From: Bacteroidales bacterium
GTDB taxonomy: Bacteria > Bacteroidota > Bacteroidia > Bacteroidales > UBA932
DNA: 64,000 bases
Reading direction: 5' to 3'
NCBI GenBank assembly: GCA_017428725.1
Contig: JAFRQH010000002.1
Coordinates: forward strand, 1-64,000
Position 1 is the stretch's first letter, and the number at the start of each line of letters is the position of its first letter. Both the position numbers and the translations under genes were made by a program. Below are positions 3-38,685 of the stretch, in pieces. The notes under the pieces are model-generated. The model searched no databases, was not told the origin of the DNA, and worked only from the letters and a program-made list of their open reading frames with translations.

Positions 3-1940
3 GACCGCCGCGTGCGGCAGAGCCTGACGCTGCGCGCCGGCGCCCGCGGGGCCCTGGCGGAGGCCTCTCCCCGCCTTCAATTTGGCGCTCCGGCGGCGGT
101 CGGGGGCGTCAAGTACGAGCTGGCCGCCGGGGAGCGCGCGGCGCTGTACTGGTCGACGCGGACGACGTACAGCGAGCCGCGCCTCACGGCGGGGACCTTC
201 AGCGCGGCGTGGTACGGGCGCCGGGCGCTGGGGCAGCTGATCGTCGGCAACTTCGGGGCGCGATTCGGGCAGGGGCTGGTGCAGTGGAGCGGCTTTGCGC
301 TGAGCGGGTACAACTCGCTCGGCGCCTTCCGCCGCAACGGCACCGGCTTCTCCCCCACCGGCTCCTGGTCGCCGGCCTTGTTCGGCCTGGCGTCGGACTG
401 GCATTTCGGGCCCTGGCGCCTCTCGGTGGCTTATTCGCTCGGGGCTTCGGTGACGGAAGTTTTTTCGAAAATCGGCGCTTTAGCTTCTTCTGACCATTTA
501 TCCATTGCATCGATTTCACCGTCATTAAGTCCGACTATTCTATTTACGAAAAGCAGTTTGACTTCTTCAGTTTCTCTGATGCCTGCTGGCGGACTGGGGT
601 CTGCTTTGGATCCTGTTTTGTTGTTATCAGCTAACGAATCTATTCCTTCTCCGGGGCGGGGGCTTGCTGCTTTTTTCTTGCAGGGCCAGCCGATATTTAA
701 TCTGACGCGGACATGGCGGCGCGCCACGGCGGGGCTGACGGCCACGGGCCAGGCAGCCTCGCTGGAGGCGCACGCCGCCTTGCCGGGCTGGAGCCTCTTC
801 GGCGAATTCGCCCTCCGCTACCCCCGCTCCCTGCAGTCTCTCCTCACCGACTCCCCCGCCGTCTCTTCGATTTCCGCTGGTTCTTCCAGTCCCCTTTCCT
901 ATTCTGCCACTGGCGCTGGTTCCCCTATTTCTTCTTTGGTCTCCGGTGCTTCTTCCAGCATTCCTTCTGCTGCTTCCGGCGCCAACTTCTGGGATCGGTG
1001 GCCGGTGCGGGCCGTGGCCGGGGCTATTTGGGTCCCGGCGTACGGCCACCGGGCGGGGATCGTGGCGCGGTGGCTGGGGGTCGGCAAGGACTACAGCGGC
1101 GTGGCGGCCGGCTACGAGGGCCCCGCCCTCTCCGCCACCGCCGACGCCTCCGTCCGCCCCGACACCCGCGCCTCCCAACTGAAATCCGTCCTCCAGTGGC
1201 GCCCCACCCTGACGCTCTCGGCGCCGGACAGCTTGTCCCGATCTCGTCGCTTGACCTTTGTGTCCGCCACGCCATCCGACGACACCTCAGCCACATCGCC
1301 CCTCACCCTCCAGCCCCTGCTCCGCGCCCAACTCCGCTGGCGCCCCACTGACGCCATTCCTCTGCCAGCCGCAATCTCCGTCCTTCCATTATTTGTCACC
1401 ACCTCGACTCAGCCATCCACCAAGGCCGTTTCCCAACCTTCTGTCGCCACCACCACACCATCCATCGGTGCCAATTTCCTACCGTCCGTCGCCGCGGCGG
1501 AAACTGGCGAGGGAGCGTTTCCCTTCGCGGCAGCGGGCGTCCGCCTGGACCTCCGCGGGATGCTGACCGCCACCTTCGGCCCGTGGATCCTGGCCGGACG
1601 CTACGACGCGGTGCTGGGCCGGAGCTTCGCCTGGAACTGGTACCTCGAGGCCGGCTGGAAGACGGAGCCCTTCGCGGTCTACGCGCGGGGCGGCCTCTTC
1701 AAGGTGGACGACTGGGACGACCGGATCTATGTCTACGAGCGGGACGCGCCGGGCTCCTTCACGGTGCCGGCGCGCTACGGGCGAGGCTGGGACGCCGCGC
1801 TCTACGCGGCTTGGCGCCCCGCCCGCCGCCACAGCCTCTGGCTCCGCCTCGAGACCGTCCGCTACCCCGCCCCCTGGGCACTCACCCCCAAGGACGGCCG
1901 CCTGGAGCTCCGCCTCCAGTACCGCTATCAATCTCGATGA
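3..1940 (+). CDS. ComEA/helix-hairpin-helix family protein, barrel-like C-terminal part (5' end outside window)
   Basis: The frame is open to the window edge, so this is a C-terminal fragment of about 645 residues; the GTG at 12 is only the first start-like codon. No helix-hairpin-helix motif is visible in the part present. Motifs such as ARFGQGLVQWSGF and, near the C-terminus, IYVYERDAPGSF followed by YGRGWDAALYAAWR resemble, from memory, the long Bacteroidota proteins annotated as helix-hairpin-helix/ComEA-like, whose C-terminal region is rich in amphipathic beta strands and probably sits in the outer membrane. Three Ser/Thr/Pro/Ala-rich stretches interrupt the strands (about 462-690, 850-985 and 1230-1500), and the first is visibly more AT-rich than its surroundings. 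It ends YRYQSR, an aromatic-rich terminus compatible with a barrel. The family call is moderate and the true function is unknown. Confidence 0.55.
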   Translation, partial: DRRVRQSLTLRAGARGALAEASPRLQFGAPAAVGGVKYELAAGERAALYWSTRTTYSEPRLTAGTFSAAWYGRRALGQLIVGNFGARFGQGLVQWSGFALSGYNSLGAFRRNGTGFSPTGSWSPALFGLASDWHFGPWRLSVAYSLGASVTEVFSKIGALASSDHLSIASISPSLSPTILFTKSSLTSSVSLMPAGGLGSALDPVLLLSANESIPSPGRGLAAFFLQGQPIFNLTRTWRRATAGLTATGQAASLEAHAALPGWSLFGEFALRYPRSLQSLLTDSPAVSSISAGSSSPLSYSATGAGSPISSLVSGASSSIPSAASGANFWDRWPVRAVAGAIWVPAYGHRAGIVARWLGVGKDYSGVAAGYEGPALSATADASVRPDTRASQLKSVLQWRPTLTLSAPDSLSRSRRLTFVSATPSDDTSATSPLTLQPLLRAQLRWRPTDAIPLPAAISVLPLFVTTSTQPSTKAVSQPSVATTTPSIGANFLPSVAAAETGEGAFPFAAAGVRLDLRGMLTATFGPWILAGRYDAVLGRSFAWNWYLEAGWKTEPFAVYARGGLFKVDDWDDRIYVYERDAPGSFTVPARYGRGWDAALYAAWRPARRHSLWLRLETVRYPAPWALTPKDGRLELRLQYRYQSR

Positions 1941-2083
1941 CCGCAAACCCCACAAATCGCCGTGAGCTGCAACTCATTCAAGTCCATGGTATTGCGAAAA
2001 CATTATGCAACGAAACGGCTGCAATTTGATATTACAATCAGTTGACAGTTAATCATTTATCACTCACAGTCAAATCTTACTTA

Positions 2084-3013
2084 ATGATGAAAAACGACAA
2101 ACGCAGAGTCCCATCGGACTCGTTTCAACACATTTTCAAGATTACCGCTGACAGCGGAGTTTTGTTTTACAGAACGGTGGACCACCTTGTATACTACACG
2201 ATAGAATCCGTGATGTGTCGCCGTTACAAGGTCCCCGTGGTCGTGGGTTGCCATATGTTCACCCATACGCACAAAGTCGCGGTCCCGCTTGATCCAGCAC
2301 AGATGGCTGCGTGCGAATCCAACATCAACATCGCTTTCACCCGTGAGTACAACAAGGAGGTGGGCCGGACCGGACGCTTGTTCAAGCGCCCGTATGGCAG
2401 CGCGCCCAAACGCTCAGACAGAGATAAGCGCTCCGTCATGATCTATGTCCTGAACAATCCGGTGGAGAAGAAACTCTGTACGAGCGCCATCCAGGACCGC
2501 TGGACCTTCCTGGCCTATTTCGAGCGGGAGTATCCCTTCTCGGAGCGACCCGTGCTCCGTCGCTGCCGCTGGGCTCTCAGGAATGCGATGACCGAAGTCG
2601 AAATGGAGTTCAAATGTGGCCGGTACCTGAAGTATGCGATGCTCCACAGACTCTTCGCCGGATTGAATCCGACGGAACGGGAGCAGTTGACGGACTACAT
2701 CATCCAACTGTACTTCTATTTCGATCGCGATGCTTGTTATCAATTGTTCGGAAGTTTGGAGAAAATGATCCAGGCTACGGACTATTCCGTTGGCAAGGAG
2801 TTCGATGTCGGGGAGGTATTTGAGTCCTTTTCCGACACTCCGTTCCGCGAGATGTGCCAGATCGCAACAAAGTATCGTTTGCTCGAACCGGGACTGCCGC
2901 TCCTGCACCTGCCGGTGAACCGCCAGCGGTCATTGGCGCTCTACTTGCATCAGCACACCTCAGCAACTGAAACATTGGTCGCGCGGTTCCTGCACTACCA
3001 GTTAGGAGCGTGA
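2084..3013 (+). CDS. Y1-family (REP-associated/IS200-like) transposase
   Basis: About 309 residues from ATG 2084; a TTG 42 bases upstream is in frame but less likely. The N-terminal half follows the TnpA_IS200/RAYT plan: an opening strand, then VGCHMFTHTHKVAV where the HTH triplet takes the place of the metal-binding HUH motif, then a helix with RSVMIYVLNNPVEKK, in which the Tyr before VLNNPV matches the catalytic Tyr of the YIxxNPV motif in RAYTs. The C-terminal 150 residues (RYLKYAMLHRLFAGLNPTER and onward) are an extension I do not recognise beyond its frequent presence in Bacteroidota members. Such proteins nick and rejoin single-stranded DNA at hairpins. The base composition is clearly lower in GC than the flanking genes, consistent with acquisition. 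No accessory gene (tnpB) is present. The frame is intact from start to stop. Confidence 0.75.
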   Translation: MMKNDKRRVPSDSFQHIFKITADSGVLFYRTVDHLVYYTIESVMCRRYKVPVVVGCHMFTHTHKVAVPLDPAQMAACESNINIAFTREYNKEVGRTGRLFKRPYGSAPKRSDRDKRSVMIYVLNNPVEKKLCTSAIQDRWTFLAYFEREYPFSERPVLRRCRWALRNAMTEVEMEFKCGRYLKYAMLHRLFAGLNPTEREQLTDYIIQLYFYFDRDACYQLFGSLEKMIQATDYSVGKEFDVGEVFESFSDTPFREMCQIATKYRLLEPGLPLLHLPVNRQRSLALYLHQHTSATETLVARFLHYQLGA

Positions 3014-29410: not shown

Positions 29411-29418
29411 TACTTTTG
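29411..29418 (+). promoter_or_regulatory. -7 box of the arginine operon
   Basis: TACTTTTG fits TAnnTTTG. A T-run with CTTTT at about 29387-29391 could serve as a degenerate -33 element. The first gene starts 178 bases downstream, an exceptionally long leader for this window. Confidence 0.55.
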
Positions 29419-29439
29419 TAACCGTTATGTTGTATGTGT

Positions 29440-29511
29440 ATTACCAGATTTCCCGACGAGGCCGAAGATAGGAGGCGTAGAACCCTCCCACATCCCCGGA
29501 AATTCGGTAAT
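29440..29511 (+). promoter_or_regulatory. Structured leader of the arginine operon (candidate cis-regulatory RNA)
   Basis: ATTACC + AGATTTCC (29440-29453) pairs with GGAAAT + TCGGTAAT (29498-29511): 14 base-pair positions with a single A-C mismatch and one G-U pair. The enclosed 44 bases contain a second hairpin, GGAGG (29471-29475) with CCTCC (29484-29488) around an 8-nt loop. A third possible stem, CCCG (29558-29561) with CGGG (29577-29580) plus flanking CAATTG copies, lies just before the ATG. I do not recognise a known riboswitch class, and there is no terminator-like U-tract. Confidence 0.5.
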
Positions 29512-29595
29512 TTATCCCTTTATCAAGAATTTTCGCCCAGCAATTGCAATTGACAATCCCGGTTTGTCTTGCCATTCGGGCAATTGTATACCATA

Positions 29596-30156
29596 ATGAG
29601 CATCAATGTGATGGTGGCCGACCAGAGCCACACCCGCTTTGCGGAAGAAATCTGCCAGGAGATTTACATTTCATCCCTGGAGCGCAAGACCGGCATCGCC
29701 AAGCGCACGCCGGAATACATCAACGAGAAGATCCTCGCCGGCAAGGCGGTGATCGCCCTCACGGATGAGGGCGAGTTCGCAGGATTCTCCTACATAGAGT
29801 CCTGGGGCGGCAAGAGCTTCGTGGCCAACTCCGGACTGATCGTAGCCCATAAGTTCCGCGGACAGGGCATCGCCAAGCGCATCAAGGAGCAGACCTTCAT
29901 CCTGTCCCGCAAGCTCTTCCCGGACGCCAAGATCTTCTCCATCACCACCGGCGCGGCGGTGATGAAGATGAACTACGAATTCGGCTTCCGCCCCGTCCCC
30001 TACACCGAGCTCACGGACGACCCTGAGTTCTGGAAGGGCTGCGAGGGCTGCCGCCACTTCGACATCCTGCAGAGCCACGACTACAAGATGTGCATCTGCA
30101 CCGGCCTGCTCTACGACCCCAAGGAGCACCTGGAGATCCATCACCCCGGAGAATAA
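29596..30156 (+). CDS. GNAT-family acetyltransferase at the head of the arginine operon
   Basis: 186 residues. The GNAT core includes GKAVIALTDEGEFAGFSYIESWGGKSFVANSGLIVAHKFRGQGIAKRIKEQTFILSR, where RGQGIAKRI is the acyl-CoA pyrophosphate loop. A cysteine cluster near the C-terminus (KGCEGCRHF ... KMCICTG) may bind metal. This gene precedes argG in other Bacteroidota too. As the only acyltransferase in a pathway that needs an N-acylated glutamate, it is the natural candidate for the first step (N-succinyl- or N-acetylglutamate synthase). That is inferred from context. ATG 29596 is preferred over one at 29569 by homology. argG follows after 12 bases. Confidence 0.8.
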   Translation: MSINVMVADQSHTRFAEEICQEIYISSLERKTGIAKRTPEYINEKILAGKAVIALTDEGEFAGFSYIESWGGKSFVANSGLIVAHKFRGQGIAKRIKEQTFILSRKLFPDAKIFSITTGAAVMKMNYEFGFRPVPYTELTDDPEFWKGCEGCRHFDILQSHDYKMCICTGLLYDPKEHLEIHHPGE

Positions 30157-30168
30157 AAACTGCTGTCT

Positions 30169-31383
30169 ATGGAAAAGAAAAAGAAAGTCGTCGTCGCATT
30201 CAGCGGAGGCCTCGACACCTCCTATACCGTGATGTACCTCGCCAAGGAGAAGGGCTACGAGGTCCACGCCGCCTGTGCCAACACCGGCGGGTTCAGCCCT
30301 GAGCAGCTCCGCACCAACGAGGAGAACGCATACAAGCTGGGCGCCACCAAATACGTGACCCTGGACGTCACGCAGGAATACTACGCCAAGAGCCTCAAGT
30401 ATATGGTCTACGGCAACGTGCTCCGCAATGGCACGTATCCCATCTCGGTGTCCTCCGAGCGCATCTTCCAGGGAATGGCCATCGCCCGCTATGCCAACGA
30501 GATCGGCGCGGACGCCATCGCGCACGGCTCCACGGGCGCCGGCAACGACCAGGTCCGCTTCGACATGACCTTCCTGGTGATGTGCCCGCAGATGGAGATC
30601 ATCACCCTCACCCGCGACGGCAATCTCAGCCGCAAGGACGAGGTGGACTACCTCAATGCGCACGGCTTCAAGGCCGACTTCGCCAAGCTCAAGTACTCCT
30701 ACAACGTGGGCATCTGGGGCACCTCCATCTGCGGCGGGGAGATCCTCGACTCGCGCCAGGGCCTGCCCGAGAGCGCCTACCTCAAGCAGGTCAGCAAGAG
30801 CGGCTCGGAAATCCTGAACCTGGGCTTCGAGCAGGGCGAACTCAAGAGCGTCAACGGCGTGGACTACGCCGACAAGATCGCCGCCATCCAGGCCGTGGAG
30901 GCCGTGGGCGCCCCCTACGGCATCGGCCGCGACATGCACGTGGGCGACACGATCATCGGCATCAAGGGCCGCGTGGGCTTCGAGGCCGCCGCCCCGATGC
31001 TCATCATCGGCGCACACAAGTTCCTGGAGAAATTCACCCTCTCCAAGTGGCAGCAATACTGGAAGGACCAGGTGGCCAACTGGTACGGGATGTTCCTGCA
31101 CGAGAGCCAGTACCTCGAGCCCGTGATGCGGGACATCGAGGCGATGCTCGAGAGCAGCCAGCGCAACGTCACGGGCACCGTGACGCTGGAGCTGCGCCCC
31201 TACGGCTTCTCCACCGTGGGCGTCGACTCCCCCTACGACCTGCTCAAGAGCAAGCTCGGCGAGTACGGCGAGACCCAGAAGGGCTGGACGGCCGCCGAGG
31301 CCAAGGGCTTCATCAAGGTCACGTCCACCCCGCTGCGCGTCTACTACGGCTCGCACCCGGACGAATTCAAGGAGGCCGAGTGA
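30169..31383 (+). CDS. argG: Argininosuccinate synthase
   Basis: 404 residues, normal length. It condenses citrulline with aspartate using ATP. The pyrophosphatase loop SGGLDTSYT (about 11-19) opens the nucleotide-binding domain; later AHGSTGAGNDQVRFD (citrulline/aspartate site) and EVGAPYGIGRDMHVGDTI-type segments follow. In a pathway with N-succinylcitrulline, argE must act before this enzyme. The stop and the argC start share one base (TGATG). Confidence 0.96.
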   Translation: MEKKKKVVVAFSGGLDTSYTVMYLAKEKGYEVHAACANTGGFSPEQLRTNEENAYKLGATKYVTLDVTQEYYAKSLKYMVYGNVLRNGTYPISVSSERIFQGMAIARYANEIGADAIAHGSTGAGNDQVRFDMTFLVMCPQMEIITLTRDGNLSRKDEVDYLNAHGFKADFAKLKYSYNVGIWGTSICGGEILDSRQGLPESAYLKQVSKSGSEILNLGFEQGELKSVNGVDYADKIAAIQAVEAVGAPYGIGRDMHVGDTIIGIKGRVGFEAAAPMLIIGAHKFLEKFTLSKWQQYWKDQVANWYGMFLHESQYLEPVMRDIEAMLESSQRNVTGTVTLELRPYGFSTVGVDSPYDLLKSKLGEYGETQKGWTAAEAKGFIKVTSTPLRVYYGSHPDEFKEAE

Positions 31384-32327
31384 TGGTACGGGTCGGCATC
31401 ATCGGCGGGGCCGGCTACACGGCGGGCGAGCTGCTGCGCATCCTGGTCAACCACCCGGAGGTGGAGATTGTCTTCGTGCACTCCACCAGCAACGCCGGCA
31501 ACTACCTGTACGAAGTCCACGGCGGCCTGTTCGGGGACACGGAGTTGCGCTTCAGCGACAGCTACGACCTCACGGCCGTGGACGTGCTCTTCCTCTGCTC
31601 GGCCCACGGCCGGAGCCGCGAGTTCTGGGCGGAGAACGCCCGCCCCGCGGGCCTGAAAGTCGTGGACCTGGCGCAGGACTTCCGCGACGAGTCCGAAGGG
31701 TACGTATACGGCCTGCCGGAGTGGCAACGCGAGCGGATCCGCACCGCGGACCTGGTGGCCAATCCCGGCTGCTTCGCAACGGCCATCCAGCTGGCGCTGC
31801 TGCCGCTTGCGCGCGCCGGCCTGCTGCACTCCCCCGTCCACGTGACGGCCGTCACGGGCTCCACGGGCGCTGGCGTCAAGCCCTCGGCCACCACGCATTT
31901 CAGCTGGCGCAGCGACAACCTGTCGACTTACAAGGTGTTCGAGCATCAGCACTTGAAGGAGATCTGCCGCAACCTGGGCTTCGATGACATCCGGTTCGTG
32001 CCGATGCGCGGGGACTTCACGCGCGGGATCTTCGCCTCCGTGACGGTGGACTGCCCGCTGTCCGGCGAGCAGGCGCTCGCGCTCTACAAAGACTACTATG
32101 CCGACGCGGCGTTCACCTTCGTGTCCGACCGCCCGGTGGACCTCAAGCAGGTGGTCAACACCAACAAATGCATCGTGGCGCTGGAGAAACACGGCGACAC
32201 GCTGGTCGTCTCGTCCGTGATCGACAACCTCCTCAAGGGGGCGTCAGGCCAGGCGGTCCAGAACATGAACCTGATTTTCGGACTTCCCGAGACAACGGGC
32301 CTCAAGCTGAAGGCATCAGCATTCTAG
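31383..32327 (+). CDS. argC: N-acetyl(succinyl)-gamma-glutamyl-phosphate reductase
   Basis: 314 residues from ATG 31383. NADPH-dependent reduction of the acyl-glutamyl phosphate to the semialdehyde. The nucleotide-binding GGAGYTAGELLR is at 8-19; the catalytic cysteine is C130 in VANPGCFATAIQLALLPL; SGAGVKPSATTHFSWRSDNLSTYKVFEHQH-like signatures follow. Shorter than the E. coli enzyme (334) but in the normal range. argD starts 6 bases downstream. Confidence 0.95.
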   Translation: MVRVGIIGGAGYTAGELLRILVNHPEVEIVFVHSTSNAGNYLYEVHGGLFGDTELRFSDSYDLTAVDVLFLCSAHGRSREFWAENARPAGLKVVDLAQDFRDESEGYVYGLPEWQRERIRTADLVANPGCFATAIQLALLPLARAGLLHSPVHVTAVTGSTGAGVKPSATTHFSWRSDNLSTYKVFEHQHLKEICRNLGFDDIRFVPMRGDFTRGIFASVTVDCPLSGEQALALYKDYYADAAFTFVSDRPVDLKQVVNTNKCIVALEKHGDTLVVSSVIDNLLKGASGQAVQNMNLIFGLPETTGLKLKASAF

Positions 32328-32333
32328 ACGGAT

Positions 32334-33461
32334 ATGGAACTTTTCGATGTCTACTCCCTCTTTGACGTCACGCCCGTACGGGCGCGCGGGTGCACCGTGT
32401 GGGATGACAAGGGGCAGGAATACCTCGACCTCTACGGCGGCCACGCCGTCATCTCCGTGGGCCACTCGCATCCGCACTACGTGGAGGCGCTGAAGGCCCA
32501 GCTGGACAAGATCGGCTTCTACTCCAACAGCGTGCGCAACCCGCTGCAGGAGGAGCTGGCGCACCGCCTCGGCGCCGCCAGCGGCTATGAAGATTACTCC
32601 CTGTTCCTGGACAACAGCGGCGCGGAGTCCAACGAGAACGCCGTCAAGCTGGCGTCCTTCCACACCGGCAAGGACCGCGTGATCGCCTTCCGGCGGAGCT
32701 TCCACGGCCGCACTTCCGGCGCCGTGGCCCTGACGGACAACCCGGCCATCGTCTCCCCCTTCAACAAGCACCACCGCGTGACCTTCTGCGAACTGAACGA
32801 CGGCGACGCCGTGGCCGAGGAGCTCGCCAAGGGCGACGTCGCGGCCGTGATCGTGGAGGGCATCCAGGGCTGCGGCGGGATCCACGTCCCTGAGCCCGGC
32901 TTCCTGCAGGCGCTCTCCCGCCTGTGCGAGCGCTACCACGCCGTGCTGGTCCTGGACGAGGTCCAGAGCGGCTACGGCCGCACGGGCAAGTTCTTTGCGC
33001 ACCAGTGGGCCGGCATCCGCCCGGGCATCATCACGCTGGGCAAGGGCATCGCCAACGGCTTCCCCTGCGGAGGCATCCTCATCGCGCCCGAATTCCAGGC
33101 CCGCAAGGGGATGCTCGGCACCACCTTCGGTGGCAACTACCTTGCCTGCGCCGGCGCGCTGGCGGTGCTCGACATCATCGAGCAGGAGGGCCTGGTGGAA
33201 AACGCCCGCCTCGTGGGCGACTACCTCAAGCAGCACATCCCGGCGAGCCCGCGCATCAAGGAGGTGCGCGGCCGCGGCCTGATGCTCGGCATCGAGTTCT
33301 GCGAGAGCGTGGCTCCCCTGCGTCGCAAGCTCCTCTACGACAAGCACATCTTCACCGGCGTGGCCGGACAGGACATGATCCGGCTGCTCGCCCCGCTCTG
33401 CCTGACGCAGGCCGAGGCGGACCGGTTCCTCGAAGCATTCACTGAAGTACTCGGACAATGA
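32334..33461 (+). CDS. argD: Acyl-ornithine aminotransferase
   Basis: 375 residues, class-III PLP aminotransferase. It makes N-acyl-ornithine from the semialdehyde with glutamate. Visible: DLYGGHAVISVGHSHPHYVEAL near 33-54, NSGAESNENAVKLA near 94-107, the PLP-contacting VLDEVQSGYGRTG near 207-218 and the Schiff-base lysine K237 in TLGKGIANGFP. The stop overlaps the argF' start by 4 bases. Acetyl versus succinyl preference is not readable here; argF' suggests succinyl. Confidence 0.95.
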   Translation: MELFDVYSLFDVTPVRARGCTVWDDKGQEYLDLYGGHAVISVGHSHPHYVEALKAQLDKIGFYSNSVRNPLQEELAHRLGAASGYEDYSLFLDNSGAESNENAVKLASFHTGKDRVIAFRRSFHGRTSGAVALTDNPAIVSPFNKHHRVTFCELNDGDAVAEELAKGDVAAVIVEGIQGCGGIHVPEPGFLQALSRLCERYHAVLVLDEVQSGYGRTGKFFAHQWAGIRPGIITLGKGIANGFPCGGILIAPEFQARKGMLGTTFGGNYLACAGALAVLDIIEQEGLVENARLVGDYLKQHIPASPRIKEVRGRGLMLGIEFCESVAPLRRKLLYDKHIFTGVAGQDMIRLLAPLCLTQAEADRFLEAFTEVLGQ

Positions 33462-34420
33462 AATCATTCTTCCACGTCAGCGACATCGGCGACCTCGGCG
33501 CAGCGCTCGCGGAGGCCCGGCAGGTCAAGGCCACGCCCTTTGCCTGGAAACACCTCGGCCAGGACAAGACCATCATGCTGGTCTTCTTCAACAGCAGCCT
33601 GCGCACGCGCCTGAGCAGCCAGAAGGCCGCGCTCAACCTGGGGATGAACCCCATCGTGCTCAACATCGGCCAGGACAGCTGGAAGCTGGAGACGGAGATG
33701 GGCGTGGTGATGGACGGCGACAAGTCCGAGCACCTGCGCGAGGCCATCCCCGTGATGACCAGCTACTGCGACCTGATCGGCATCCGCTCCTTCGCGGGGC
33801 TGACCGACCGGGAATACGACTACAACGAGACGGTGCTCCGCCAGTTCATCGAGTACGGCGGCAAGCCCGTGATCAGCCTCGAATCCGCCACGGTGCACCC
33901 GTGCCAGGCTTTCGCGGACCTGATCACGATCGACGAATACAAGGAAACGAAGCGCCCCAAGGTCGTGATGACCTGGGCCCCGCATCCGCGGGCGCTCCCC
34001 CAGGCCGTGCCGAACTCCTTCGCGGAGTGGATGAACGCCGCGGACGTGGACTTCGTCATCACGCACCCCCACGGGTACGAACTGGATCCGGCCTTCGTGG
34101 GCGGCGCCCGCGTGGAGTACGACCAGATGAAGGCCCTGGAGGGCGCCGACTTCGTCTACGCCAAGAACTGGAGCTGCCCGGGCGTGACCAACCCCGCGCA
34201 GTACGGCCAGGTCCTCAGCAAGGACATGGGCTGGACCGTGGACGCGAAGCACATGGCCGTGACCAACAACGCCTACTTCCTGCACTGCCTGCCCGTGCGC
34301 CGCAACATGATCGTCTCCGACGAGGTGATCGACTCGCCGCGCAGCCTGGTGATCCCCGAGGCGGCCAACCGCGCCGTCTCCGCACAGGTGGTGATGAAAC
34401 GGATGCTCGAGAGCCTATGA
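33458..34420 (+). CDS. argF': N-succinylornithine-type carbamoyltransferase (ArgF')
   Basis: 320 residues. The carbamoyl-phosphate loop is FFNSSLRTRLSSQKAALNLGM (SLRTR near 47-51), as in the acetyl/succinylornithine branch and unlike STRTR of ordinary OTCase. KLETEMGVVMDGDKSEHLREA, TWAPHPRALPQAVPNSFAEWMN and HCLPVRRNM match the Bacteroides fragilis enzyme closely as I recall it. The residue that separates acetyl- (Glu92 in Xanthomonas) from succinyl-specific enzymes (Pro90 in B. fragilis) is Ser90 here. Published swaps of Glu92 to Ser gave succinylornithine activity, so a succinyl substrate is more likely. Carbamoyl phosphate comes from carAB in the same operon. ATGA overlaps at both ends. 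Confidence 0.93.
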   Translation: MKSFFHVSDIGDLGAALAEARQVKATPFAWKHLGQDKTIMLVFFNSSLRTRLSSQKAALNLGMNPIVLNIGQDSWKLETEMGVVMDGDKSEHLREAIPVMTSYCDLIGIRSFAGLTDREYDYNETVLRQFIEYGGKPVISLESATVHPCQAFADLITIDEYKETKRPKVVMTWAPHPRALPQAVPNSFAEWMNAADVDFVITHPHGYELDPAFVGGARVEYDQMKALEGADFVYAKNWSCPGVTNPAQYGQVLSKDMGWTVDAKHMAVTNNAYFLHCLPVRRNMIVSDEVIDSPRSLVIPEAANRAVSAQVVMKRMLESL

Positions 34421-35193
34421 TCAGCGTCTACAAGGTGGGAGGCAACGTGGTGGACGATCCGGCGGCGCTGGAGCGCTTCTGCCGCGATTTCGCCGCGGTG
34501 GAGGGGCCCAAGGTGCTCGTCCACGGCGGCGGCGTGCGCGCCAGCCAGGTCCAGAAGGCGCTGGGCCAGGAGCCGGTCAAGGTCGAGGGGCGCCGCGTCA
34601 CGGACGCGCAGACCCTCGAGGTCGTGACGATGGTCTATGCCGGCTGGTGCAACAAGGACATCGTGGCCCGCCTGCAGGCCGAGGGCTGCAACGCCATCGG
34701 ACTGGCCGGCTGCGACGGCGGGGTCATCACGGCCCGCCGCCGGCCGCCGAAGACCCTCTCCGACGGGGTCACGAAGGTGGACTACGGCTTCGTTGGCGAC
34801 GTCACACCGGCCTCGGTCAACCGGGACTTCCTCCTGCAACTGCTCTCGGCCGGACTCGTGCCCGTGCTGAGTGCCATCAACCACGACGGCGCCGGACAAC
34901 TGCTCAACACCAATGCCGACACCGTGGCGGCTGCGATTTGTGTCGCGCTGGGCGCAAAACTATTTTATTGTTTCGAAAAAAATGGCGTACTTTGTGACCG
35001 GAATGACGACCAGAGCGTGATTCCCGTCCTCGATCCGCAGGCCTATCAGCGGCTCAAAACCGAAGGACGCGTCGCCGACGGGATGATCCCCAAGATCGAC
35101 AACGCGTTCCAGGCCTTGCGGGACGGTGCGGCCGGGGTCGTCATCCGGAGCGCCGACCTGTCGGCGCCGGGCGGTACGAGTTTGACCTTATGA
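34417..35193 (+). CDS. argB: Acyl-glutamate kinase
   Basis: 258 residues from ATG 34417, inside the ATGA overlap with argF'. Amino-acid-kinase fold: YKVGGNVVDDP (phosphate-binding lysine and glycines) at the N-terminus, VHGGGVRASQVQKALG near 35-50, EVVTMVYAGWCNKDIVARL near 68, VLSAINHDGAGQLLNTNADTVAAAICVALGAKLFYCFEKNGVL in the ATP domain, and RVADGMIPKIDNAFQALRDGA. A short stretch around 34935-34995 is AT-richer than its surroundings but in frame. No N-terminal helix for arginine feedback is present. argE overlaps by 4 bases. Confidence 0.94.
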   Translation: MISVYKVGGNVVDDPAALERFCRDFAAVEGPKVLVHGGGVRASQVQKALGQEPVKVEGRRVTDAQTLEVVTMVYAGWCNKDIVARLQAEGCNAIGLAGCDGGVITARRRPPKTLSDGVTKVDYGFVGDVTPASVNRDFLLQLLSAGLVPVLSAINHDGAGQLLNTNADTVAAAICVALGAKLFYCFEKNGVLCDRNDDQSVIPVLDPQAYQRLKTEGRVADGMIPKIDNAFQALRDGAAGVVIRSADLSAPGGTSLTL

Positions 35194-36281
35194 ATTTGTA
35201 CGAAGAATCCATACAGCTGCTGCGGCAGATGGTCCGCATCCCCTCCCTCTCCGGGGAGGAGGCGGGCGTAGCCGCCTGCATCGGAGCGGCCCTGGACGCC
35301 TGGGGCATCCCTTATGAGCTGGTCCGGGGCAACGTGCTGGCGCGCAACCGACGTTTCGATCCCGGCAAGCCCACCCTCGCCCTCGACGCCCACCTCGACA
35401 CGGTCCCCGTCAGCAGCGGTTATTCTCGCGACCCGTTCGATTCCGGCAACGATCCCGATATCATTTACGGACTGGGTTCCAATGACGATGGCGGAAGTGT
35501 AGTGTCTATGATTGCTGCATTCCGCCATTTCTATGACGCGCAGATGCCCTTCAACCTGGTGCTGGCCCTCACCCGCCAGGAGGAGGTGGCCGGTCCGGAC
35601 GGCGCGCGCTGGCTCTACGCCCCGGATGGGCTGTTCGCCACCGACCCGCGCTGGCCGATGCCGCGCCGCGTGATCGTGGGCGAGCCCACGGGGATGCGCC
35701 CCGCCACGAGCGAACGCGGCCTGCTGGTGCTGGACGGACTTGCCCTGGGCGTGAGCGGCCACGCCGCCCGCGGCGAGGGCGTCAATGCGCTCTACATCGC
35801 CCTGGACGACATCGCCGCCCTGCGTGCCCACCAATTCTCCCGTCCCTCCCCGCTGATGGGCGAGGTACACCTCAATGTGACGCAGATCGCCGCCGGCCAC
35901 GCCCACAACGTCATCCCCGACCGCTGCAGCTTCGTGGTGGACATCCGCCCCACGGAGCAGTACACCAACGAGGAGATCCTCGCGGAACTGCAGGCGCTCT
36001 GCCGCAGCAGCCTCAAGGCGCGCAACCTCACCAACCGCTCTTCGGCCACGGCCGCGGACTCTCCCCTGCTGCAGGCCGCTGCGGCGCTCGGGCTCGAGAC
36101 CTACTCCTCGCCGACCACATCCGACTGGATGCGCATCCCCTGCGATGCCGTCAAGCTGGGTCCCGGCGAGTCCGCCCGCTCCCACAAGGCCGACGAATAC
36201 ATCCTCGCGCGCGAAATCGCGCAAGGCATAGATGGATATATAGCTTTTATTGAGACACTATATGGCTACTCTTTGGAATAA
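35190..36281 (+). CDS. argE: N-acyl-ornithine/citrulline deacylase (M20 family)
   Basis: 363 residues, M20 zinc peptidase fold. Metal-binding motifs: ALDAHLDTVPVS (about 67-78), GLGSNDDGGSVVSM (about 94-107), RQEEVAGPDG with the catalytic Glu pair, and a late histidine-containing segment (ARSHKADEYI). It removes the acetyl or succinyl group. Because argF' carbamylates the acylated ornithine, the true substrate is probably N-succinylcitrulline or N-acetylcitrulline rather than acylornithine. Overlaps argB by 4 bases and argH by 20 bases. Confidence 0.92.
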   Translation: MNLYEESIQLLRQMVRIPSLSGEEAGVAACIGAALDAWGIPYELVRGNVLARNRRFDPGKPTLALDAHLDTVPVSSGYSRDPFDSGNDPDIIYGLGSNDDGGSVVSMIAAFRHFYDAQMPFNLVLALTRQEEVAGPDGARWLYAPDGLFATDPRWPMPRRVIVGEPTGMRPATSERGLLVLDGLALGVSGHAARGEGVNALYIALDDIAALRAHQFSRPSPLMGEVHLNVTQIAAGHAHNVIPDRCSFVVDIRPTEQYTNEEILAELQALCRSSLKARNLTNRSSATAADSPLLQAAAALGLETYSSPTTSDWMRIPCDAVKLGPGESARSHKADEYILAREIAQGIDGYIAFIETLYGYSLE

Positions 36282-37593
36282 AGGGACTTCCGCCACGGAA
36301 GCCGTTGAGCGTTTCACGGTCGGCAACGACCGCGTGCTCGACCTCGCCCTGGCCCGCTACGACGTGCAGGGCTCCCTGGCGCACATCCGGATGCTGGAGC
36401 GCATCGGCCTGCTGACGGCCGACGAGCTGACGGCGCTCAGCGCCGCGCTCGAGCGCATCGCCGCGCGCATCGAGTCCGGTGACTTCGTGCTGGAGGACGA
36501 CGTGGAGGACATCCACTCCCAGGTGGAGCTGCTCCTCACGCGCGAGCTCGGAGAGATGGGCAAGAAGATCCACTCCGGGCGGTCCCGCAACGATCAGGTC
36601 CTCGTGGACATCAAGCTCTTCCTGCGCGACGAGCTGCGCTCCGTGCGCGGAGAGGTCCTGACCCTGTTCCGGACCCTGCAGGGCCTCAGCGACCGCTACA
36701 AGGAGGTGCTGCTGCCCGGCTACACGCACGCGCAGGTGGCGATGCCCTCTTCCTTCGGCCTGTGGTTCGGCGCCTATGCCGAGGCGCTCGTGGACGACAT
36801 GTACCTGCTGGGCGGGGCCTACAAGGTGGTGGACCGCAATCCGCTCGGCTCCGCCGCCGGCTACGGCAACTCCTTCCCGCTGGACCGCCAGCTGACCACG
36901 GACCTGCTGGGCTTCGCCTCGCCGGTCTACAACAGCGTGGCCGCCCAGATGCAGCGCGGGCGCACGGAGCGCGCCGTGGCGTCGGCCCTGGGCTCCGTGG
37001 CGCTGACACTCAACAAGTTCGCCTCCGACTGCTGCCAGTATATGTGTCCGAACTTCGGCTTCATCAAGTTCCCGGACGAGCTGACCACGGGCTCCAGCAT
37101 CATGCCGCACAAGAAGAATCCCGACGTCTGGGAGATCCTGCGCGGCAAGTGCAACCGCATCCTCGCCGCGGAGAACGAGATCTCCCTGCTGTGCAGCAAC
37201 ATGCCCCACGGGTACCACCGCGACTACCAGCTCCTCAAGGACATCCTCTTCCCCACCCTGGAGCTGATGCACGACTGCCTGCAGATGGCGGACTATATGC
37301 TGCAATACATAGAGGTGAACACCCACATCCTGGACAATCCCCTCTACGACTACCTCTTCACGGTCGAGGAGGTGAACCGCCGTACGCTCGCCGGCACGCC
37401 TTTCCGCGAGGCCTACCGGCAGGTGGGCGTGGAGGTCAACGAAGGCCGCTTCCAGTACGGCGGCGGCCGGGGCCACGGCGACCTCAAGGCCTCCGACCTG
37501 GGCCACACGCACCTGGGGAGCCTGGGCAACCTGTGCAACGACCGGATCGCCGCCCTGATGGACGCGGCGGCCGACTGGCAGAAAGCAAGATAA
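36262..37593 (+). CDS. argH: Argininosuccinate lyase
   Basis: 443 residues from ATG 36262 (ATLWNKG); a TTG 12 bases upstream is less likely. It splits argininosuccinate to arginine and fumarate. Family signatures: DVEDIHSQVELLLTRELGEMGKKIHSGRSRNDQV near 80-113, YTHAQVAMPSSFGLW near 155-169, and the fumarase/aspartase loop TTGSSIMPHKKNPDVWE near 275-291, which holds the catalytic serine. It overlaps argE by 20 bases, and carA follows 12 bases later. Confidence 0.96.
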   Translation: MATLWNKGTSATEAVERFTVGNDRVLDLALARYDVQGSLAHIRMLERIGLLTADELTALSAALERIAARIESGDFVLEDDVEDIHSQVELLLTRELGEMGKKIHSGRSRNDQVLVDIKLFLRDELRSVRGEVLTLFRTLQGLSDRYKEVLLPGYTHAQVAMPSSFGLWFGAYAEALVDDMYLLGGAYKVVDRNPLGSAAGYGNSFPLDRQLTTDLLGFASPVYNSVAAQMQRGRTERAVASALGSVALTLNKFASDCCQYMCPNFGFIKFPDELTTGSSIMPHKKNPDVWEILRGKCNRILAAENEISLLCSNMPHGYHRDYQLLKDILFPTLELMHDCLQMADYMLQYIEVNTHILDNPLYDYLFTVEEVNRRTLAGTPFREAYRQVGVEVNEGRFQYGGGRGHGDLKASDLGHTHLGSLGNLCNDRIAALMDAAADWQKAR

Positions 37594-37605
37594 CATACTT
37601 ACGAT

Positions 37606-38685
37606 ATGACAACACGCAAAAAAGCGACACTCGTCCTGCAGAACGGACGCAAAATGGAGGGCTGGGCCTTCGGCTACGACGGCCCGTGCGACGGAGAGGT
37701 GGTCTTCTCCACGGCGATGGTGGGATACACCGAGAGCCTGACGGATCCTTCCTTCTCCGGCCAGATCCTCTGTGCCACCTACCCGCTCCTCGGCAATTAC
37801 GGCATCTCCCCGATGGAGACCGACCGGGACGGCCTGCTCAAGAGCTTCGAATCCGAGAAAATCCACATCCGCGGCCTGGTCGTGACCGACTACAGCGAGG
37901 AATACAGCCACTGGGACGCCGTCAAGAGCCTGGGCGACTGGATGGCGGAGCAGAAGGTCCCGGGCGTCTCCGGCATCGACACCCGCCTGCTCACGCAGAT
38001 CCTGCGCGAGGAGGGCTCGATGCTTGGCAAGATCGTGCCCGAAGGGATGGACGACGGTACGTTCGACGTGGCCGACCCGAACCTGGAGAACCAGGCGGCC
38101 ATCGTCAGCTGCAAGGAGGTGATCCGCTACGGCAGCGGCGACAAGAAGGTCGTGCTGGTGGACTGCGGCGTCAAGCACCAGATCCTGCGCTGCCTGGTGC
38201 GGCGCGGCGTGGAGGTGATCCGCGTCCCCTGGGACTATGATTTCAACCAGATGGAGTGGGACGGCCTGTTCATCTCCAACGGCCCCGGCAATCCGATCCA
38301 CTGCAAGGCCACGGTGGAGCACATCCGCCAGGCCATGCAGACCGGCAAGCCGATCTGCGGCATCTGCCTGGGCAACCAGCTCCTCGGGATCGCCGCCGGC
38401 GCGTCGACCTACAAGCTCAAATACGGCCACCGCTCCCACAACCAGCCCGTGCGCCAGGTGGGCACGGACCGCTGCTACATCACGGCCCAGAACCACGGCT
38501 ATGCGCTGGACGAGAGTACCCTCCCCGCTGGCTGGGAGCCGTATTTCACCAATATGAACGACGGCACCAACGAGGGCATCCGGCACAAGACCAAGCCCTT
38601 CTTCACCGCCCAGTTCCATCCTGAGGCCTCCAGCGGCCCCGAGGACACCGAATTCATCTTTGACGACTTTATCTCCCTGTTATGA
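37606..38685 (+). CDS. carA: Carbamoyl-phosphate synthase small (glutaminase) subunit
   Basis: 359 residues. N-terminal CPSase small domain (ATLVLQNGRKMEGWAFG ... MVGYTESLTDPSFSGQIL), then a class-I glutamine amidotransferase with the nucleophile C254 in CGICLGNQLLG and the His-Glu pair in AQFHPEASSGPEDTEF. It hydrolyses glutamine and channels ammonia to CarB. Its position directly after argH in the arginine operon ties carbamoyl-phosphate supply to arginine synthesis, although pyrimidines need the same product. The stop overlaps the carB start by 4 bases. Confidence 0.97.
   Translation: MTTRKKATLVLQNGRKMEGWAFGYDGPCDGEVVFSTAMVGYTESLTDPSFSGQILCATYPLLGNYGISPMETDRDGLLKSFESEKIHIRGLVVTDYSEEYSHWDAVKSLGDWMAEQKVPGVSGIDTRLLTQILREEGSMLGKIVPEGMDDGTFDVADPNLENQAAIVSCKEVIRYGSGDKKVVLVDCGVKHQILRCLVRRGVEVIRVPWDYDFNQMEWDGLFISNGPGNPIHCKATVEHIRQAMQTGKPICGICLGNQLLGIAAGASTYKLKYGHRSHNQPVRQVGTDRCYITAQNHGYALDESTLPAGWEPYFTNMNDGTNEGIRHKTKPFFTAQFHPEASSGPEDTEFIFDDFISLL

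Follow-up and report, generated by a model that had tools for sequence, protein, structure and literature searches.

The 64,000-nucleotide stretch of DNA analysed here (the window) comes from a Cryptobacteroides-like gut Bacteroidales bacterium, and comparison with its relatives indicates that the long leader in front of its arginine operon is probably a ribosome-mediated arginine attenuator that replaces ArgR and controls GNAT-argG-argC-argD-argF'-argB-argE-argH-carA. The leader encodes a short peptide rich in rare Arg codons, and the likely sensor is therefore the translating ribosome and not an aptamer. An earlier note on this DNA had proposed a new regulatory RNA at this place. A conserved RNA with covarying helices before the arginine operon is indeed present; a purely structural RNA or a riboswitch-like read-out is not supported.

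The features of the leader and operon are collected in Table 1. TAnnTTTG is the consensus of the Bacteroidota -7 box, and from this box to the ATG of the GNAT gene at 29596 there are 177 bases, as had been counted; that ATG is not the first, since one at 29427 precedes it, 8 bases past the box. The NCBIfam scores of argG, argD and the argE-like protein lie under the curated cut-offs of the models. The previously described hairpin of GGAGG (29471-29475) with CCTCC (29484-29488) and stem of CCCG (29558-29561) with CGGG (29577-29580) are both present in the sequence. The folding energy of the leader is only slightly better than that of shuffles (z = -1.9 and -1.7) and is by itself unconvincing support for structure. 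We regard as decisive for the reality of the folded leader the comparative sequence evidence across relatives, drawn from 5′ regions of the GNAT-argG operon.

Table 1. Leader and operon features in window coordinates, with the basis or a comment for each.
Feature	Position	Strand	Basis or comment
-7 promoter element TACTTTTG, Bacteroidota TAnnTTTG type	29411..29418	+	direct reading
Leader peptide ORF MLYVYYQISRRGRR, 14 codons, near-leaderless	29427..29471	+	stop TAG 29469-29471; in-frame comparison across relatives
Helix X (stem of the earlier note)	29440-29453 : 29498-29511	+	matched versus swapped pairing, compensatory pairs
Helix P1	29462-29469 : 29492-29499	+	three pairs changed on both sides; 76% of cells paired
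Hairpin A, GGAGG/CCTCC	29471..29488	+	begins at the G of the leader stop codon; 99% of cells paired
Helix P2	29498-29505 : 29527-29534	+	two pairs changed on both sides; 92% of cells paired
Hairpin B, 35 nt	29542..29576	+	near-invariant; AAU-u-GCAA-uu-GACAA-u-C-nmg-G-u-UUGUC-UUGC-c-RUU
Mini-hairpin UUGCC-AUUCG-GGCAA	29569..29583	+	overlaps the 3′ arm of B; read directly, relatives carry variants
GNAT-like acetyltransferase, first gene of the operon	29596..30156	+	Pfam Acetyltransf_7, sub-cut-off (22.9 vs 27 bits)
argG, argC, argD, acetyl/succinylornithine carbamoyltransferase (argF'), argB, argE-like, argH, carA	30169..38685	+	NCBIfam matches

The leader ORF and its Arg codons had been overlooked in the earlier reading. 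In the window these codons are CGA at 29454, 29457 and 29463 and AGA at 29466, and in a set of ten window genes the two codons make up 3 of 182 Arg codons (one CGA, two AGA). The ORF was evaluated in 43 non-redundant loci, for which the only anchor was a stop codon followed by GAGG, upstream of hairpin B. In 42 of them the first ATG past a strict -7 box was in frame, and in 40 it was both in frame and open (p=3e-16 against 1/3); the penultimate codon was CGA in all 43. A search pattern that itself required CCGA gave this codon at the same position in 48/48 leaders, a requirement absent from the 43/43 result. In those 48 leaders 93 of 156 Arg codons are CGA, and in the GNAT genes the figure is 7 of 406 (p=1e-54); when the penultimate codons are removed, CGA still accounts for 45 of 108 (p=2e-27). 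Arg contributes 17.6% of leader peptide residues. Inosine reads CGA inefficiently, and of the 30 tRNAs (out of 39) with a determined anticodon, tRNA-Arg(ACG) alone can decode it. The sequence comparison points to a short, probably translated ORF that lies between the promoter and the GNAT gene, in which rare Arg codons, probable control codons for the operon's own amino acid, stand ahead of an arginine pathway operon.

The start of the ORF lies 6-10 nt past the -7 box in the 43 non-redundant leaders, so the mRNA from which the peptide is translated probably has no 5′ leader, or almost none. The peptides of relatives have about 11 to 30 residues and end mostly in SRRxRR or VR(I/L/M/V), with the stop codon at the foot of hairpin A and I, R, L, V or M as last residue; the upstream residues are unconserved, and several lineages have a single Arg codon, as in MMKTGNIFVRL. 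The C-terminal VR(I/L/R) and stop are kept across leaders, yet the stop has been lost in three (L066, L183 and L192), where reading continues 3-5 codons further and the CGA is retained.

Downstream of its start the ORF overlaps a set of helices. The 14-position stem described previously, here helix X, was confirmed by direct reading and consists of 12 Watson-Crick pairs, one G-U and one A.C around a 44-nt interior; no stem as good appeared in 300 mononucleotide shuffles of the leader, but the 64 kb window holds 11 of them. Helix X pairs the ORF start region with the segment after P1, and its sequence changes between lineages as its position is kept. Matched arms pair at -10.7 kcal/mol versus -8.2 kcal/mol for arms swapped between lineages (p<5e-5, N=24; p=0.001, N=15), with compensatory differences such as AAUACAAGA/UCUUUGUAUU in L055 vs AAUACGAGA/UCUUCGUAUU in L063 and AAUCGUAU/AUACGAUU in L134 vs UUGUAUGU/ACAUACAA in L095. 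P1 carries two A.C mismatches in the window, is intact in several relatives and is broken in many sequences, and hairpin A hardly varies and so supplies little covariation evidence. In a 32-sequence alignment the covariation score of P1, A, P2 and B together was 0.076 against 0.058 +/- 0.003 in shuffles, 0 of 500 of which scored as high, and 13 cells had changed on both sides versus 3.8 in shuffles; this signal is modest, and the sequences counted are related.

Helix X and P2 have bases 29498-29505 of the window in common and are mutually exclusive there, and covariation together with masked folding predicts that the leader can adopt either of them, X being the one that overlaps the ORF. Masking a ribosome footprint at the CGA codon in 31 sequences lowered the mean expected pairs of X from 2.9 to 0.2-1.0 and raised those of P2 from 5.3 to 6.7-7.6 and of hairpin B from 5.7 to 8.1-8.5, such that P2 is preferred over X in the masked state. 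In lineages other than the window's, X and P2 are compatible only as a pseudoknot, and the second main clade, with a GNAT about 70% identical, mostly lacks X and P1. A pairing of CCCU in hairpin A with AGGG in the tail of B was unconserved on inspection and was dropped.

Hairpin B has near-invariant stems and most of its loop positions are likewise near-invariant, and the remaining leader has diverged. Its sole compensatory change is GCAA/UUGC to GUAA/UUAC in L081 and L202. Each genome has a single copy, which precedes the GNAT gene in the matches within the genus. A coding stretch was rejected as the explanation, as loop and downstream substitutions would alter amino acids and stops without pattern. 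The hairpin is retained without the peptide in three groups (L019, L029, L102 and L133; L065 and L128; L118 and L119), so it must have a role independent of the peptide. In L019-like loci B begins about 10 nt past the promoter box, and in the four members of that group a AAAAAUUUUC/GAAAAUUUUU stem lies downstream, immediately ahead of the start codon; inside it is a copy-like segment, GGCAAG..GACAAAC, that is complementary to the 3′ arm of B. In L118 and L119 the sequence after B has changed from CNUUAGGG to AAGUGAGGC, and in L118 a CCCUCA upstream of B could pair with UGAGG.

Several candidate partners of hairpin B were considered. Segments complementary to its 3′ arm occur downstream in some relatives (17 of 74 at p<0.05 vs 7 in the control); as a general element this downstream segment was rejected, being significant only in some lineages and absent from the window's clade. 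Within the ORF, the Arg codons are predicted to pair with the same arm (helix Y) in 8 of 44 leaders at p<0.05, with 0 for the 5′ arm and for reversed controls. Helix Y occurs in leaders that have C as the second variable base in the loop of B. It can form in free RNA of the main clade, for example in L124 (-14 kcal/mol), and would couple ribosome position to hairpin B; we keep it as a suggestive lead. The mini-hairpin that overlaps the 3′ arm is a weak candidate for a weak terminator or pause, and in some relatives the corresponding GCC/GGC hairpin is followed by a U-rich stretch.

Searches for known elements gave little. Rfam returned no match for the leader of the window or of 13 relatives at gathering or relaxed thresholds beyond weak matches attributable to chance, and the leader thus matches no known riboswitch family, in agreement with the earlier impression that no riboswitch consensus fits. 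As had also been remarked, the window leader contains no intrinsic terminator (0 found), and terminator-like sites were not enriched in relatives (7 of 78 leaders vs 5 of 78 shuffles). Because an intrinsic terminator is missing, we do not class the leader as a classical terminator attenuator.

The model of hairpin B finds matches in three genera of one GTDB family, with one marginal match in a fourth; matches elsewhere in the order are weak (E 2e-4 to 7e-3), and the outside-family loci that were retrieved gave no match to the GNAT protein. The absence of argR, noted previously for the window, extends to the entire genome (98.2% complete, PF02863 absent), and with no ArgR gene in the genome the operon is not a member of an ArgR regulon. 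ArgR is present in 76 of 200 congeners. The 132 genomes of the genus with GNAT divide into 1 with both B and ArgR, 51 with B only, 67 with ArgR only and 13 with neither (Fisher p=5e-23), and those of high quality into 0, 20, 30 and 4, respectively (p=3e-11); because of the relatedness of the species, these p-values make the independent events look more numerous than they are. ArgR is therefore absent in 51 of 52 B-bearing genomes. In the sole exception, G153, it lies beside a second, distant GNAT on another contig, which is possibly contamination. An adjacent argR was found at 0 of 126 B-bearing loci vs 44 of 76 others, counts in which some loci are repeats of one genome, and in loci that lack B argR often stands immediately before GNAT, is transcribed divergently from it or forms a fusion with it. 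With the leader RNA almost confined to ArgR-less genomes, it is probably the switch that replaces ArgR. A GNAT tree (midpoint root, many weak branches) has ArgR in a deep outgroup, the leader throughout a large ingroup and ArgR again in nested clades, which suggests that ArgR was replaced and that a later reversal occurred.

Rearranged loci were seen as well. In L035, a MAG record (1294-3001), the leader and B are intact and a 5′-nucleotidase/metallophosphatase gene (1524-2987) precedes GNAT-argG; the leader still heads the operon with a new first gene, which fits control at the level of the operon. A single ORF of 325 aa at L238:169-1146 (G018 contig C45) fuses ArgR to GNAT, with similar frames in G030, G043, G158 and G178, and one of 584 aa at L237:102-1856 (G080 contig C2) fuses GNAT to ArgG, with frames of similar size in G116, G169, G012 and others.

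The folding shifts under the footprint, the exclusion of X and P2, and helix Y together lead us to read the leader as an arginine attenuator. The sensor would be the 14-codon near-leaderless ORF with the rarest Arg codons, CGA and AGA, right before its stop. When Arg-tRNA is plentiful the ribosome would complete the ORF and depart, the ORF RNA would pair downstream as helix X and expression of the operon would be low; in some lineages the Arg codons may also pair with the 3′ arm of B at high arginine. When arginine is scarce the ribosome is expected to stall at CGA, covering the ORF, P1 and hairpin A, such that P2 and B form and the operon is expressed. We infer the stalling from the codons and the direction of the response from the biosynthetic nature of the operon. 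For the output we favour premature transcription termination, perhaps Rho-dependent, and next mRNA decay or translation; control at translation of the first gene, as raised in the earlier note, is thus possible. Several observations count against an attenuator. No intrinsic terminator was found, three groups have hairpin B and no peptide, covariation is modest, the single Arg codon of several lineages is weak for codon counting, P1 is degraded in the window, 13 genomes have neither ArgR nor B, and the conservation of hairpin B exceeds that expected of a plain attenuator hairpin.

Part of this evidence could be accommodated by an arginine-sensing arrest peptide similar to fungal AAP, TnaC or SpeFL. 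At high arginine, a nascent chain ending in VR(I/L/R) would bind free arginine or a similar compound, halt the ribosome at the stop codon and switch off the operon. The strict placing of the last codons, the invariant penultimate Arg in the 43 loci, the stop at the foot of hairpin A and the many peptides with just one or two Arg residues would all fit. We nevertheless judge this unlikely, since an arrest peptide has no need for a rare codon and yet Arg is encoded almost only by CGA, the three leaders that lost the original stop kept the CGA, and residues further upstream are unconserved. About equally improbable is that hairpin B is the true sensor, as a protein-binding site or small aptamer, with the leader peptide merely modulating. 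Its near-invariance against a diverging remainder, its persistence in three groups that lack the peptide and the downstream complements to its 3′ arm in some relatives argue for such a role; a trans factor would however have a single site per genome, most lineages retain the peptide and its rare codons, and the window's clade is without the downstream complement.

A more specific version, to which we give very little weight, is that hairpin B itself binds arginine as an aptamer, which would make the leader a natural bacterial arginine riboswitch that most lineages combine with a leader-peptide sensor. The core of B, A-UU-GA paired with UC-U, resembles the argininamide-binding bulge of HIV-2 TAR RNA; the first U of the bulge never varies, nor do the G-C and A-U pairs above it, and the second bulged base is U, C or G. 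The persistence of B without the peptide in ArgR-less genomes also counts toward this reading. Least credible of all, and close to negligible in our estimate, is that an unknown transcription factor recognises the conserved sequence as a DNA operator or promoter-proximal element, with no RNA device. The strong conservation of B near the promoter, down to about ten nucleotides from the box, could be explained in this way, but the in-frame rare-codon ORF, the compensatory pairs and the position-kept helix X demand RNA and translation, and the distance from promoter to B is highly variable. Ribosome-mediated attenuation is thus the reading we prefer.

We know of no arginine attenuator on a bacterial biosynthetic operon. 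The his, trp, leu and ilv attenuators likewise combine a short ORF with codons for the product, exclusive helices that overlap the ORF and a biosynthetic operon downstream (theory in PMC1183508). The present leader differs from them in that the amino acid is arginine, no intrinsic terminator was found, there are often one or two control codons, the ORF is near-leaderless, a near-invariant hairpin B is added and the device stands in for ArgR. The Salmonella orf34/SpeFL leader of speF has two consecutive Arg codons at which ribosome pausing at low arginine refolds the mRNA, with Rho and RNase G acting (PMC6386406). It shares an Arg-codon leader ORF with the present leader, whereas its target is ornithine decarboxylase and not arginine synthesis, and sequence, structure and host phylum are different (PMC6386406). 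In the rbfL uORF of Staphylococcus aureus, rare Arg codons in a short upstream ORF detect arginine limitation, but this ORF overlaps the rbf ribosome-binding site, represses at low arginine and has a biofilm regulator as its target (PMC13009471). Within the same phylum, leader-peptide attenuation has been suggested before amino-acid operons of Flavobacterium psychrophilum, with leader peptides and structured 5′ regions, and the passage on them names no arginine leader (PMC9723704). Control by ArgR acts on the same target operon in sister lineages, where argR is upstream of, divergent from or fused to GNAT; that system consists of a protein and a DNA operator, unlike an RNA leader.

Leader-peptide attenuation is already known as a kind of regulation, and the new part is an arginine-biosynthetic version that swaps with ArgR; an arginine leader attenuator on an arginine biosynthetic operon that exchanges with ArgR was not found among the open-access papers searched. 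If true, this would to our knowledge be the first case of leader-peptide attenuation at an arginine biosynthetic operon. It would also be a clear case of the ArgR protein and an RNA device swapping at one operon within a genus, apparently several times. The proposal is unusual and testable in its often single CGA sensor codon, its near-leaderless ORF and a 35-nt hairpin that is near-constant beside diverging coding sequence. Cryptobacteroides-like rumen and gut bacteria are widespread in metagenomes, and we know of no gene-regulation study of them. Since close relatives carry either ArgR or the RNA, the switch of regulator would be open to direct study.
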